A stretch of DNA of 32,500 bases, from contig CALVJP010000002.1 of NCBI GenBank assembly GCA_944332215.1, forward strand, positions 1 to 32,500. Reading direction: 5' to 3'. Source of the DNA: an uncultured Bacilli bacterium. GTDB lineage: Bacteria > Bacillota_I > Bacilli_A > RF39 > UBA660. The position numbers and the translations under genes were made by a program. The notes beneath the pieces are model-generated. The model was not told the DNA's origin and searched no databases. It saw nothing but the letters and a program-made list of their open reading frames with translations. This document shows, one piece after another, positions 2,011-32,500 of this stretch; the first letter of the stretch is position 1; every line of letters starts with the position of its first letter.

Positions 2011-2881
2011 AAGTAGGAATCGTCCAGGTAACATTAAAATGCTTTACATTTTGAAACGCTGTGTTAGGGACTTTAACAATCTCTGGGATATCTTCTTCAG
2101 GAATAAAATTTTGAATAGTCAATTTCAAAGGTTCATCATAACTAAGCCTTAAAGCCCCTAGCATTTGCGAAGATGCTTTTTGATAAATTAGTAGCATTTG
2201 CGCATCATAATTTTTTCGTTTTAAAATTAAAGACTCAGCTGGCACTTCAGTATCAGCAAAAGTAACGGACAAAGAATTTTCTATAATTTCTAGCTGATGC
2301 TTAGAAGTCGAAACTATCTCAAAGTTTTCAAGGACTTTGTTATCATCTTGAAAAACTTTAGTGGATCCGGCCTCTCCAATAATTGTTTCATCCATAAATG
2401 AAGGCTTTAAATCATGTTGCTCCACCAACTTAAGAATATCATTTTTTTCTTTACTAATATCAATAATATCCCCGCCACCGTTTATCTGAGTACTCCAATA
2501 AATATCGACATTATCAAACGCTTTCCAAATTAATTCTTGCGTCGCAATATAATATTTAGGTGTTTGATGTCCAGGATATTCATAACCATAATAGCCAATT
2601 TTCTCTAAATATTTTTGAGTCTCAAACGATAAACCAGTATGCTGCCAGCTAGTAAAACTGTCGTATTCTTTAACAGTAATGTCTTGACCAGGCTCTAAAC
2701 AATAAGCTAAACGGTCATCCAAAAAAAACTGAGTTACATGGTTTGATGTCCTACTTCCCCCGACATTAAGATTAAAATAAATATTATCAAGCCGCTTATA
2801 AGTAATCGTCTCAGCACGACCTTCTGGCAAAAAAGCAACAAACAAACTACCAAATAAAATTAACAACCATATTTTTTTCAT
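1991..2881 (-). CDS. Secreted thioester-domain (TQXA/TED) surface protein
   Basis: This 296-residue protein has a signal peptide (about 1-23, ending GRA-E). It then has a thioester domain with C61 (YCLEPG) and Q115 in TQELIW, the Cys-Gln pair that forms an internal thioester in Gram-positive adhesins and captures host amines covalently. A second beta-rich domain follows (about 160-265). At 271-275 VPNTA resembles a sortase signal (LPxTG-like). The 21 residues after it contain no long hydrophobic segment and no basic tail, so the membrane-stop part of the sorting signal is missing. The coding end overlaps the sortase start. The SD AAAGGAG is 5 bases before the ATG. Either anchoring is lost, making the protein secreted, or a deletion trimmed this end. 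Confidence 0.85.
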   Translation of the reverse strand: MKKIWLLILFGSLFVAFLPEGRAETITYKRLDNIYFNLNVGGSRTSNHVTQFFLDDRLAYCLEPGQDITVKEYDSFTSWQHTGLSFETQKYLEKIGYYGYEYPGHQTPKYYIATQELIWKAFDNVDIYWSTQINGGGDIIDISKEKNDILKLVEQHDLKPSFMDETIIGEAGSTKVFQDDNKVLENFEIVSTSKHQLEIIENSLSVTFADTEVPAESLILKRKNYDAQMLLIYQKASSQMLGALRLSYDEPLKLTIQNFIPEEDIPEIVKVPNTAFQNVKHFNVTWTIPTYVQVFN

Positions 2882-2954
2882 GGTGCTCCTTTCTAGCCCC
2901 TTATTATTATCATACGAGATGGTTAAGCTATTTCCTTTTAATAATCTAATAAAA

Positions 2955-2984
2955 AGAAAAAAAGTATTTTATAAGATACTTTTT
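2955..2984 (-). terminator. Rho-independent terminator after the YfhO-like gene
   Basis: A 9-bp stem AAAAAGTAT / ATACTTTTT with an 8-base loop is followed by further T residues on the minus strand. It lies about 40 bases past the TAG at 3025. It separates the big membrane protein gene from the thioester protein gene. Confidence 0.75.
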
Positions 2985-3024
2985 GATTATTTTATAAGGG
3001 AACAAATGCCACTTTTATATACGG

Positions 3025-5568
3025 CTATTTTACTTTTTTGGGTCTATAAGCCACATCACGAATAAGCACAATAAGCAGGATGACAAGTCCACCTAAACTA
3101 ACTTTTTTACCTAAAGCTAAATATGGTGCTTCATAATCTAAGGTAATTTGATGATACCCTTGACTAATGGGAAAACCAATAAAAGCTCCACTAACTTTTT
3201 CATACGTCGTATCTTGGCCGTCAACTTTAATGGTAAAACCTGAATCGTATGGAATAGTCAACATAAAATAACCAGATTTTTTAACATTAATGTCCCCCTC
3301 TAGGTGACTACCTCGGCTTTTTTCATAGTCGATATTATATGAATCAACCTTAGTTGGAAGCTGACTAATCAAGTTAAAATCTAAAGCAAAAATTTGTATA
3401 TCATTGATAGTATAATTTCCCTTAGAAAAAACAAGCTTCAAGTTTTTAAGGTTATCAAGACTTGATAAAGTGTAATCGAAAGTTTGATTATGATTATAAT
3501 ATTTCCACTCACGGCATGTTAATTTGTTTTTAATTCCATTAATAGTGATGCTCGTATCGCCTTGCTTACATGACTGCGGGTTAGACACATGAATTCTCAC
3601 CAATAGTAATTGATCTTGGAAAGCTTGATTTAAATCTAAAATGAGCTCACCTTTTTGACTATCAATCGTGGTAATTTGATAGCTATGGTCAATTTTTTGA
3701 ATTTTTAGATTTTGACTCTTAGCTTTAGTCAAATCAATTTCAACAGGCTGCATATGGGAAGTTAAAGCTTTATTTGGAGCATTATCAACAATGATATTGT
3801 TCATGAGTCCTTCTAGCTTATAAGGAAATTTCAAAGCCTTATACTGCGTTTTATTTAAAAGCTGAGAATTGGCATAACCAACAGGCATAAAATTATGATT
3901 AATATATAATGTATATGTTCCAGAATTTTTAACTTTAGTATAACCACGTGGCGCGGCTTTATCTGTAATTAGATACTTGACGCCCATGTATGTTTCAAAC
4001 ATGACATTCTTATTTTGATGGGTAATCACCGAATTACGATAAGCAATATTATTATTAAAAGTGTGGTAAAAAAACTTGTTATAATCTTTGTTATAGGTCG
4101 ATGAATACAAAGTAAGGCTATTTTGTCTAATATCTAAAATGCGATTAACATGTTGAGCTGCGCCCTTAACATCAGTATAAATGCGATAATAAGATTGGTC
4201 GTGCTTAGTGATATAGTGCACCAAATCAGCTATTTCTGGACTGTTTTGCTTTTGATGATCAGCCTTAGTTTCTAGCTCATCTCCAAAATTAACACCTATA
4301 CAAATAATATAAATAAAGATAATAAAGGTTATAATTAATTTATTTGGCTTTTGATGCTTATAATAAAAGGAAATAAGGAAAACGGTTAATAGACCATCTA
4401 AAGCATAAAGGGCTGTAAATTGGGGCTTGGAAAAAATTAAAGCAATAATGAGGGTTAAAGCAAACATAAATAAAATATTATATAAAGCAATTTCCTTTTG
4501 AAAAAGGCGTTTAAAAAACAAAGCAATGGCTAGAACATATAAAGGCAAAAGCGGAATTAAAGCCTTACCATCTAAATATAAAGTTCCATTTAAAATATAG
4601 ACAAAGAAATTAGCCGTAATAATTGTAATTAAAGCAATATTTAAGAAGAGATTATCTCTTTTTTTGATAATTAAATTGGTAAACAAAGCCAAGATAACTA
4701 TAGCTGTAAGGCCAACAGAATAAGGACTATAAAGCAAATATTCCAGTCCAAAATGGGGAATAACAAGTTCAGTAATATTAAGGGGGACATCCCCATGAAT
4801 GCGGCCATTTAAAAGAGCATTAGCCACGGGCAATAATAAAATAGCCGCTAAAAGAATGGCCGTAATAAGTGGAAAACTAAATTTTAAAGCTTCTTTCAAA
4901 AAATTTTTAAGTGTCGGCGTACGATTTTCTCTTAAATAAACATAAATTCCATAAATCACAATTGCTAAAATAGCTCCCACGCTATAAAAATAGCTAGTCA
5001 TGATGATTAAGAAAGTAGTAACAATTAACGGTGATATTTTCTTTCGTTCAAAGTACAGATCCACACTCATTAAAGCCATAATGAGAAATGGCATATAGTT
5101 AATAAACATCACATGGCGGTGAGTTTGGAAAATTAAGGGACTGGCACATAAAAAAATTGCCGTGGCTAAAAGACAAATATTGGTTTGAAAACCACTTTTT
5201 TTTAACCATTTATAAAAAAGAATAATACTTAATAATCCAAGTAAAATACTACTAAGACTAATATAATCATTCATCTGAATGTGTGGGAAAAGGTAAGATA
5301 GTAAAATAATAGGACTTAAAAAACCATAATAAGCAAAATAGAAAATATTTTGACCCGCGCCTAAATTTGGGGCAAAAGAGGGAATTAATTCTTTGGTGTC
5401 GTAAAATAAGGAGCGGAAATACTCGGGAATAGCCCAGTGTTGAATACTCCAATCAGTGGTTGAGCCATATATAAAAGTACCATGTGTAATGATCAAAGTT
5501 ACAAAAAGGTACATTAATATTAAAATAGTTAGATTACGATAATCTTTTTTATTAAACTTCTTTGTCAT
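3025..5568 (-). CDS. YfhO-family integral membrane protein (GT-C-like)
   Basis: This 847-residue protein has about a dozen hydrophobic segments in its first 420 residues. A large extracellular domain of about 390 residues follows, and a single C-terminal membrane span (about 823-841) ends in a basic tail. The opening, with short loops and PSFAPNLGAGQN near residue 65, matches the YfhO family. In Bacillus that family is tied to glycosylation of teichoic acids, using lipid-linked sugars outside the membrane. Function here is inferred from family and topology, not from identified catalytic residues. SD AAAGG precedes the ATG. It lies 118 bases downstream of the PIG-L gene; a deacetylase beside a glycosyltransferase-like protein suggests cell-envelope glycan work. 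Confidence 0.8.
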   Translation of the reverse strand: MTKKFNKKDYRNLTILILMYLFVTLIITHGTFIYGSTTDWSIQHWAIPEYFRSLFYDTKELIPSFAPNLGAGQNIFYFAYYGFLSPIILLSYLFPHIQMNDYISLSSILLGLLSIILFYKWLKKSGFQTNICLLATAIFLCASPLIFQTHRHVMFINYMPFLIMALMSVDLYFERKKISPLIVTTFLIIMTSYFYSVGAILAIVIYGIYVYLRENRTPTLKNFLKEALKFSFPLITAILLAAILLLPVANALLNGRIHGDVPLNITELVIPHFGLEYLLYSPYSVGLTAIVILALFTNLIIKKRDNLFLNIALITIITANFFVYILNGTLYLDGKALIPLLPLYVLAIALFFKRLFQKEIALYNILFMFALTLIIALIFSKPQFTALYALDGLLTVFLISFYYKHQKPNKLIITFIIFIYIICIGVNFGDELETKADHQKQNSPEIADLVHYITKHDQSYYRIYTDVKGAAQHVNRILDIRQNSLTLYSSTYNKDYNKFFYHTFNNNIAYRNSVITHQNKNVMFETYMGVKYLITDKAAPRGYTKVKNSGTYTLYINHNFMPVGYANSQLLNKTQYKALKFPYKLEGLMNNIIVDNAPNKALTSHMQPVEIDLTKAKSQNLKIQKIDHSYQITTIDSQKGELILDLNQAFQDQLLLVRIHVSNPQSCKQGDTSITINGIKNKLTCREWKYYNHNQTFDYTLSSLDNLKNLKLVFSKGNYTINDIQIFALDFNLISQLPTKVDSYNIDYEKSRGSHLEGDINVKKSGYFMLTIPYDSGFTIKVDGQDTTYEKVSGAFIGFPISQGYHQITLDYEAPYLALGKKVSLGGLVILLIVLIRDVAYRPKKVK

Positions 5569-7124: not shown

Positions 7125-7986
7125 AGCTTTCCCATCTACCATATATACCGCACGGTAAGATAAGATTATTCTTCGTTATTTGTAAGCCAACTTCTCCTGT
7201 TTCTATTTTGCCACGAGGATACCGTGGTAAAAGGGCGGTTTTTAACATATTGCCAAGAACGATATTGGAAACACCGGTTGTATAGGAATTAATTAATAAG
7301 AACAAGGGTTTGTCACTCAAAATTTTGATGCAAGCGTTTAAAAGAATAGCGATGTTTTTTTCAAATTTCCAAACTTCTTTATTTGGACCACGACCATAGC
7401 TTGGAGGATCCATAATAATACCATCATATTTATGGCCTCGGCGATATTCTCGTTCCACAAATTTTAAACAATCATCAACGATAAAGCGAATTTTTTGATT
7501 TTCTAAATGACATAAACGCATATTTTCTTTAGCCCATTCAGTCATGCCTTTTGAAGCATCGACTTGGACCACTTCCGCCCCGGCTTTGGCGCAGGCCATC
7601 GTGGCTGCTCCCGTGTAAGCAAAAAGATTAAGGACTTTAATAGGACGGTTAGCTTTTTGGATTTTTTGTCTAACAAAATCCCAATTTGTGGCTTGCTCTG
7701 GAAATAAACCTGTATGTTTGAAGTTAGTGGGCGTTACTTTAAAGGTAAGATCTTTATATTTGATTGTCCACTGCTGTGGTAATTTGTTTTTAAATTCCCA
7801 GTAACCACCGCCTTTATTAGAACGATGATAATAAGCATCAACTTGGGTCCAAGCTTTATCAAATTCAATGGACCACATGGCCTGGGGATCAGGCCTTCGA
7901 AGAATAATATTTCCCCATTTTTCTAATTTTTCGCCATTTCCAGCATCTAGGCATTCATAATCTTGCCATTTATCACTTATCTTCAT
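7117..7986 (-). CDS. Class I SAM-dependent RNA methyltransferase (RlmI/RlmK-like)
   Basis: This 289-residue protein has a Rossmann methyltransferase domain. The SAM-binding motif FAYTGAAT lies at 122-129, an acidic ribose-binding segment (VDASKG) follows, and the catalytic-type motif DPPSYGRG is at 193-200. DPPSY-type motifs are found in rRNA methyltransferases of the RlmI/RlmL group, which modify cytosine or guanine bases. The N-terminal 100 residues are family-specific. The frame has an upstream ATG at 8004, but AAGGTGAG lies 5 bases before the ATG at 7986, so I start there. It sits 28 bases after the MFS-CBS gene and overlaps the pseudouridine synthase, forming a three-gene unit. Confidence 0.85.
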   Translation of the reverse strand: MKISDKWQDYECLDAGNGEKLEKWGNIILRRPDPQAMWSIEFDKAWTQVDAYYHRSNKGGGYWEFKNKLPQQWTIKYKDLTFKVTPTNFKHTGLFPEQATNWDFVRQKIQKANRPIKVLNLFAYTGAATMACAKAGAEVVQVDASKGMTEWAKENMRLCHLENQKIRFIVDDCLKFVEREYRRGHKYDGIIMDPPSYGRGPNKEVWKFEKNIAILLNACIKILSDKPLFLLINSYTTGVSNIVLGNMLKTALLPRYPRGKIETGEVGLQITKNNLILPCGIYGRWESYD

Positions 7987-31352: not shown

Positions 31353-32500
31353 TTAACTTAGCTCCAAGATAAATGGATCAGATGAAGTCCCCACTCCGTC
31401 TATAATTTGCGTTTCTGATGTTAGATAAAGGACTGGGCGCACGCCAAGCGCACCGACGTTGACTTTAAGGCTGTAGATGACATAGCCCGCACTGCCCACC
31501 AAGACCGCATAGTTGCCACTACTGGCACCGGGGGCCTGTGTCCATTGAGTTTTACTACTATTATACAAATAATCATTATTCTTACAATCACTAACACTTG
31601 AGACATCCCACCTATATAATAGTGCTGTTGTTAAACAGACTTCTTTACTGGTTGTACTTCCTCCTCCTGTCGCATATCCATAATCACTTGGATACATTAA
31701 ACCTATTTTTTGAACTGTACTTGTTGGATTTCTACTAGATACACTTTCACTTCGTTCAACATCATAATATCCACTTACTGTTAATGTCTTATAGTTACTA
31801 TCCGTCGGCCCACCTAGATAAAATGTACTTTCTTCTATCATAGCTTGTGAGGCTTGGTCTATACTGTTATAGTATGTTCCATTTAAATATGTTTGTAAGG
31901 TACTTCCTTCCCAGTTATTATAATTCCCAAATTGCCATACTGTGTTCCAATAAAATCCTTCACTCGTGCCTATGGTTACTCCCTTATCGGTTTCTACGGG
32001 TGTTAATAATTCATTTCTGGCTATTTTTACCTTACCATCAACTATTCCTATTATTCTCCATAACTCGTTATTGAATGTTACATAGTTATTTGGATCAGCT
32101 CCATAATATCGGATATTTCCTTTATCATCTGTATATATTTCTTCGGGATTACTTTCTACTAATTCGCTTATTTTAGCTAAAGCTGTATTCCCTCCACTTG
32201 GGGTACTACTACTTGCTTGACTATAATCTAAAGTGACAGTTAATTCACCTACTTTATTTACAGGATCACTACTTACATTAATATCATAACTGACTTTAAC
32301 ATTTAAAGTCGTATTACTTCCAGCATTTAAAATATCACCCTCAGTTAAACCTGAGGTTTCAAACTTTATAGCTGGATTATTTGTATCACTTAAAGTTATC
32401 TTATCTAACTTAGCATTTAATGTTCCCTCATTACTTACAGTTATTTCATAAGTAATACTATCTCCAGGACTTACTAAGTTTGTATTAAAGGTAGCTGTTA
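31353..32500 (-). CDS. Large surface protein, 3' part (5' end beyond window)
   Basis: The minus-strand frame stays open from the window edge to the TAA at 31353, about 382 codons. An apparent ATG at 31841 is internal. The visible N-part is a beta-sandwich, DUF11-like extracellular domain (SPGDSITYEITVSNEG...). A Ser/Thr/Gly linker follows, and then the C-terminal domain beginning ADPNNYVTFNNELWRIIGIV and ending GVRPVLYLTSETQIIDG, which recurs in Bacillota surface proteins. I see no LPxTG signal or membrane anchor at the C-terminus; any anchor would be upstream. The stretch coded by 31431-31540 is about 62% GC by hand count, against about 27% in the 80 bases just upstream in the gene. Likely surface-exposed; partner unknown. 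Confidence 0.75.
   Translation of the reverse strand, partial: TATFNTNLVSPGDSITYEITVSNEGTLNAKLDKITLSDTNNPAIKFETSGLTEGDILNAGSNTTLNVKVSYDINVSSDPVNKVGELTVTLDYSQASSSTPSGGNTALAKISELVESNPEEIYTDDKGNIRYYGADPNNYVTFNNELWRIIGIVDGKVKIARNELLTPVETDKGVTIGTSEGFYWNTVWQFGNYNNWEGSTLQTYLNGTYYNSIDQASQAMIEESTFYLGGPTDSNYKTLTVSGYYDVERSESVSSRNPTSTVQKIGLMYPSDYGYATGGGSTTSKEVCLTTALLYRWDVSSVSDCKNNDYLYNSSKTQWTQAPGASSGNYAVLVGSAGYVIYSLKVNVGALGVRPVLYLTSETQIIDGVGTSSDPFILELS
31431..31545 (-). other. GC-rich cassette within the surface protein gene (candidate variable region)
   Basis: This 115-base block encodes roughly QAPGASSGNYAVLVG... up to GVRPVL. About three quarters of its codons end in C or T, unlike the flanking codons, which favour A/T-ending forms. 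Its edges are sharp. It is a candidate variable region of a diversity-generating retroelement or a gene-conversion cassette; neither a template repeat nor a reverse transcriptase is in the window. Confidence 0.4.

Follow-up and report, generated by a model that had tools for sequence, protein, structure and literature searches.

A GC-rich block at the end of a surface-protein gene in an uncultured gut Bacilli bacterium is a probable variable repeat of a trans-acting diversity-generating retroelement

Why should a gene of an AT-rich genome end in a short, sharply bounded stretch of GC-rich DNA? The question is raised by the window, a stretch of 32,500 nucleotides from an uncultured Bacilli bacterium, in which positions 31431-31540 belong to the 3' end of a minus-strand gene for a DUF6273 surface protein. 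The GC content of this block is 61.8% and that of the adjoining 80 bases 27.5%, in agreement with the approximate figures (62% and 27%) of the original prediction, which had been made from the letters alone. The remainder of the gene has a GC content of 0.327 and the 32.5-kb window, counted in 110-bp windows, a mean of 0.333 (s.d. 0.063); the block, about 4.5 s.d. above this mean, is the maximum among all such windows. It is translated as WTQAPGASSGNYAVLVGSAGYVIYSLKVNVGALGVRPVLYL. The dominance of NNC/NNT codons that had been noticed in it is real, with C or T at the third position of 24 of the 33 codons (C in 15), while third positions in the same gene upstream of the block are 83% A/T and just 9% C. 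The block stops 80 bp short of the open reading frame (ORF) terminus, at GGCGTGCGCCCAG, where its 3' boundary is GC-rich. Its edges, described earlier as sharp, both match the edges of identity between template and variable repeat (VR) in other genomes of the genus: GGC.CC on the 5' side and CCCAG on the 3' side map to window positions 31536 and 31433, respectively, and the CCCAG limit is identical to that of the congener VRs.

We read the block as the VR of a diversity-generating retroelement (DGR), with a probability of about 0.92, roughly a quarter of whose weight allows for present inactivity. As judged from sequence comparison, it would be written in trans, by a DGR that is encoded at another site of the genome and serves a large surface-gene family. 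A DGR had been the leading guess of the original prediction, and this guess has gained support from a reverse transcriptase (RT), an Avd protein, templates and adenine-biased VRs in the same genome, from congener targets that lie beside templates with nearly adenine-only differences, and from the signature in codon positions and adenine columns described below. Both a related repeat and an RT, whose absence from the genome the prediction had named as counting against it, were found, the former as three homologues of the block and the latter on contig C13. A DUF6273 domain with a VR at its C-terminus is, moreover, a documented DGR target (PMC11792537; PMC10743442). The features discussed are collected in Table 1.

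Table 1. Positions of the target gene and its parts in the window, and of DGR repeats on other contigs of the same genome (G000)
Feature	Position	Strand	Basis or remark
Target gene (surface protein)	31353..32500 (ORF 31353-32498)	-	ORF; 5' part lost at window/contig end
Ig-like / DUF11-CARDB-like region upstream of DUF6273	32301..32477	-	Weak matches, under Pfam cut-offs
DUF6273 domain (PF19789), terminating in the variable repeat	31419..31925	-	Pfam E 4.2e-07, 30.4 bits, cut-off 23.5
Probable DGR variable repeat (GC-rich block), hypervariable C-terminal segment	31433..31536	-	GC 0.618, hypervariability at codon positions 1/2, congener template adenines, homology limits; limits approximate (GGCCCCC...CGCCCAG), set by homology to bona fide variable repeats
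Constant 3' tail after the variable repeat (PVLYLTSETQI...GTSSDPFIL)	31353..31432	-	Kept in paralogues and congeners
Two tandem template repeats, L005 (G000:C13)	2474-2606 and 2641-2776		
Variable repeat, L005 (G000:C13)	2918-3031		
Remote variable repeat	G000:C48:23274-23380		

The target gene adjoins the S10 ribosomal operon, and its ORF runs off the end of the window, which is also the end of contig C2. The window protein may fairly be read as a surface protein because its paralogue on contig C20, which is complete (446 aa), has an N-terminal hydrophobic membrane anchor or signal, an Ig-like region after it and a DUF6273 domain like that of the window protein. The product would be a cell-surface binder. 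The structure model of the target domain is of high confidence (pLDDT 90, pTM 0.90). Foldseek matched it in the PDB solely to the Thomasclavelia IgA peptidase (9qa6) and otherwise to viral DUF6273 proteins; a classical C-type lectin was absent from these matches, and no solved structure was matched when the domain was searched as a profile. The published resemblance of DUF6273 to C-type lectins (PMC10743442) has no counterpart in our Foldseek search. Elsewhere in the window, at 1504-2881 on the minus strand, a sortase gene adjoins that of a thioester-domain (TED) protein, a pair typical of Gram-positive surface adhesins.

The block occurs in four genes of the genome, namely the window gene and paralogues at C71:941-1078, C15:11767-11883 and C20:1391-1525. 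Contig C15 terminates within its VR; assemblies tend to break at repeated VR and template sequence. In the codon alignment of the four paralogues, pairwise differences at codon positions 1/2/3 number 92/69/27 of 192 within the block and 261/222/408 of 1765 outside it. Variable columns are distributed accordingly (Fisher p 1.7e-4): they number 20/18/8 among 28 codons of the block and 49/41/83 among 236 flanking codons. The variability of positions 1 and 2 together reaches 0.68 in the block against a maximum of 0.43 in flank windows. Hypervariability at the first two codon positions, the signature of AAC/AAT template codons, is therefore present. On the evidence of these alignments, the pattern is one that adenine mutagenesis of such codons would give and that ordinary divergence or gene conversion would not. 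The lengths of the four VRs are unequal, with differences of one to a few codons; their first 19 codons, which form a gap-free alignment, were compared with congener templates. Of the 17 columns that hold an A in those templates, 15 are variable among the four VRs, as are 14 of the 40 other columns (Fisher p 3.4e-4). The latter fraction exceeds the 2-5% of true template/VR pairs in congeners and is a genuine reservation: this genome's template for the family may be unlike those of the congeners, more than one template may be used (C13 has two), or the VRs may have drifted in part. Adjoining the C71 paralogue, an ORF that weakly matches a DDE transposase (L006, G000:C71, 1354-2529) marks a possible route for the dispersal of target genes.

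The DGR machinery of this genome was found on contig C13 (3,796 bp), which carries, in a single orientation, an RT, a bAvd protein, a protein with MutS domain I, two template repeats and a VR-bearing target gene. The RT (RVT_1, E 1.7e-12) is truncated by the contig edge, and the bAvd (PF22296, E 4e-15) lies in one cassette with the RT and the MutS_I protein. MSL proteins with a MutS_I-type Pfam domain have already been listed as DGR accessories (PMC10053308). The C13 VR corresponds to one template (TRa) in its 5' part and to the other (TRb) in its 3' part, with 0 non-A and 11 A differences, while a single template leaves 5-6 non-A differences. In the remote VR on contig C48 the order is the opposite, TRb first and TRa after it, with 2 non-A and 10 A differences, as against 8-9 non-A differences from a single template. 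Because both the C13 cassette and the C48 VR fit adenine-mutated templates, the genome possesses a DGR, and its targets extend beyond its own contig. The reciprocal mosaics suggest, from their sequences, successive partial retrohoming from two templates; a non-exhaustive check of the literature found no description of such reciprocal mosaicism between two tandem templates. The C13 element serves a target family other than that of the window, and its templates were ruled out as direct donors of the block, since they encode a different sequence (NFNNWGNANEFNVTSTGEL...).

Targets of the window's own type were found beside DGR cassettes in related genomes. An RT homologous to that of C13 is present in 32 of the 44 genomes of the genus (this genome counted), and DUF6273 relatives of the window protein occur in 37 of them, with up to 45 per genome. 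Four congeners (G015, G031, G020 and G030) have genes with 57-63% identity to the window protein that directly adjoin a template and RT cassette, arranged in G015, G031 and G030 as target, small ORF, template, ORF, Avd and RT. Across the cores of the local repeats in these four genomes, VR and template differ at 59 of 124 A, 2 of 106 C, 4 of 90 G and 4 of 87 T positions. A remote VR of the window type in G020 (L098) differs from the cassette template at 15 positions, all 15 of them adenines, and a genus-wide RT search gave no RT match on its contig (C34). Since the differences of this remote repeat fall at adenines alone, action in trans on a window-type gene is seen in a congener. The comparison for L111 was left out of the totals for remote repeats, as it aligned outside a VR. 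The RT beside these window-type targets belongs to a different lineage, 47% identical to the C13 RT. Among solved structures, the congener RT, a homologue of the C13 RT, comes closest to the 8ub7 reverse transcriptase series (E 1.2e-19), which we take to be the DGR RT of phage BPP-1. The Avd of the G015 cassette matches NCBIfam DivGenRetAVD (E 4e-10, under its cut-off) and the PHROG family 'Avd protein of DGR' (E 3e-13).

The template of the window block itself was sought in several ways. The original prediction had expected a near-identical template with A-only differences in the same genome, and none was found in the 86%-complete assembly. BLAST of the whole assembly with the inferred template returned just the four VR copies, and so did a pattern of the constant VR bases with 3 mismatches allowed. 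The same pattern found nothing in public genome and viral contigs. The C13 RT was the only RT found in the assembly, without one of the second type, and the extra ORF of second-type cassettes had no match there. The assembly consists of 74 contigs and breaks at VR and RT sequence, so the absence of a template is uninformative until the genome is closed. We infer that the genome carries, or recently carried, a second template for the window's family, either in an unassembled second cassette or as a further template for the C13 RT, and that the DGR of this family is probably active at present.

The proposed mechanism follows that of known DGRs. The RT and its Avd partner would copy the RNA of a template repeat into cDNA, with misincorporation at template adenines, and the cDNA would replace the homologous 3' segment of a surface-protein gene (mutagenic retrohoming). 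Template codons rich in AAC/AAT would become NNC/NNT codons in the VR, so that residues of the receptor-like DUF6273 domain change and GC content rises. With a remote target, the retroelement would act in trans on the window gene and its three paralogues from an unassembled cassette.

Could the block have arisen without a retroelement? Gene conversion or other recombination among DUF6273 paralogues, which the original prediction named as the main alternative, might have produced a mosaic GC-rich cassette, and the family does recombine or duplicate: the block is common to four paralogues, and the C2 and C71 genes hardly differ in their N-terminal parts. Gene conversion, however, homogenises sequences and leaves ordinary rates at the three codon positions, the inverse of what the block displays; nor would it predict hypervariability of positions 1 and 2 at template adenines, or homologues in congeners that adjoin templates with nearly adenine-only differences. 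The codon-position test led us to reject it as the main cause, and we now regard it as very improbable. A chance fluctuation in composition, or a GC-rich constant segment kept for protein function, could draw on nothing beyond a possible local codon bias. The block, which no other 110-bp stretch of the window exceeds in GC content, is hypervariable between paralogues, a comparison that refutes this explanation, and a GC-rich 3' block recurs in 40 of 80 homologous genes of other genomes; its probability is negligible.

Two further alternatives, one on activity and one on the RT involved, are sub-cases of the VR reading, and confidences in them and in that reading do not sum to one. The family may have been diversified by a second-type DGR that this strain has since lost, leaving a block that now merely drifts. 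Neither a template nor a second RT is present in the assembly, 14 of the 40 columns that are non-A in congener templates vary as well, and Treponema denticola strains with target genes and no core DGR have been reported (PMC4891356). A comparable remnant exists in G016, where a target, a template and a MutS-like gene persist with neither RT nor Avd at a site that holds a full cassette in relatives. Still, third positions in the block remain less variable than the others (8 against 20 and 18 of 28 codons), as if drift had not yet overwritten the DGR signature, and the assembly is incomplete and broken at just such sequence; we therefore hold retirement of the repeat to be unlikely. It is also conceivable, if doubtful, that the C13 RT diversifies the window gene in trans by means of a further, unassembled template, one RT thus serving several. 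This RT is the sole one found in the genome, already has two tandem templates and serves the remote C48 target, but window-type targets in congeners adjoin the other RT lineage, and the C13 templates and the window VR belong to different sequence families.

A DGR-written VR in the window gene would have close parallels in known systems. Descriptions of DUF6273 targets, of remote targets and of multiple templates all exist in the literature (PMC11792537, PMC10743442, PMC4891356, PMC10907252, PMC6642488). RT-driven adenine mutagenesis is shared with the DGRs of Faecalibacterium prophages and of tentaclin-encoding gut phages (PMC11792537, PMC10743442), and the prophage proteins of the former study likewise have a DUF6273 target domain with the VR at its C-terminus. 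Those targets are phage proteins, partly receptor-binding or tail proteins, whereas the targets described here are chromosomal surface genes with housekeeping neighbours, the S10 ribosomal operon in the window and rpsF-ssb in some congeners. Chromosomal DGRs with several targets, some far from the RT, are known from Treponema denticola (PMC4891356) and Thiohalocapsa PB-PSB1 (PMC10907252), which belong to other phyla and diversify other proteins; the family described here is much larger, with tens of DUF6273 relatives per genome of ~1.0-1.4 Mb, a count of relatives and not of active VRs. With the DGR of Bordetella phage BPP-1 (bRT, Avd, template repeat and Mtd), the system shares RT and Avd homologues, the logic of template and VR, and the adenine bias. 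The BPP-1 element, however, is a phage cassette acting in cis on one target, whereas targets here are often in trans, and the C13 cassette additionally has the MutS-domain-I (MSL) protein. The kind of system is thus already known, and what is new is the lineage, the size of the family and the reciprocal-mosaic VRs that two tandem templates have left on C13 and C48. We put forward only tentatively, at somewhat less than even odds, that DGRs in this small-genome gut Bacilli lineage form a genome-wide, multi-template trans system, in which related templates in tandem feed numerous dispersed surface genes and mosaic VRs, left by partial retrohoming from one template after another, combine several templates with adenine mutagenesis.

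When public species genomes were scanned with the target alignment, the matches came from uncultured Bacilli metagenome-assembled genomes, the named ones including Candidatus Ventrenecus and Candidatus Onthousia. In 40 of 80 sampled DUF6273 loci, a gene of ~32% GC contains, close to its 3' end, 100 bp of >=50% GC. An RT lies within the 6-kb flank in 7 of the 80 (some flanks are cut by contig ends), and most of these 7 have an adenine-biased template. From these sequences, remote DGR targets look common, and the main global DGR survey has noted that RT-proximal searches miss them (PMC8144416). The window target, beside a ribosomal-protein operon, was found from sequence composition alone; in AT-rich genomes, a GC step where a gene ends may therefore serve as an inexpensive marker of trans-acting DGR targets. 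A system of this kind would supply uncultured gut Bacilli of ~1 Mb with a large hypervariable surface repertoire.

Several smaller observations were made on the congener loci. In G016, a target on contig C1 (L019, minus strand, ~7208-7650 and downstream) is followed within ~200 bp by an unmutated template-like copy with a 3' gene tail and then by a MutS-like gene; RT and Avd are missing, and the locus lies next to rpsF-ssb, where relatives hold the full cassette. At L017 (G016:C4, 7757-8169), a target is likewise followed within ~200 bp by such a copy and tail. These template-like copies were dropped as additional support for the window, as they are unmutated 3' gene tails or cassette remnants. 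Just upstream of second-type templates, a conserved ORF of ~100-135 aa (SAYNR(Y/F)VFLKKLHKRDLIIIK...) was seen at L087 (G015:C107, 2146-2550), with equivalents in L089-L091, L093 and L095; the L087 copy matched no Pfam, NCBIfam or PHROG family at E 0.01, and the ORF is possibly an unlisted DGR accessory. The local VR of L090 (G020:C21) and the VR of L114 (G020:C14), although on different contigs, are identical, every mutated adenine included, which reflects either recent copying between targets or an assembly artefact. At L018 (G016:C2, 7139-7801), a template beside an RT lies at the 3' end of an ORF whose product resembles a truncated protein of transposon type (TnpB/OrfB-like by eye), so a mobile element may have carried templates or taken them up.
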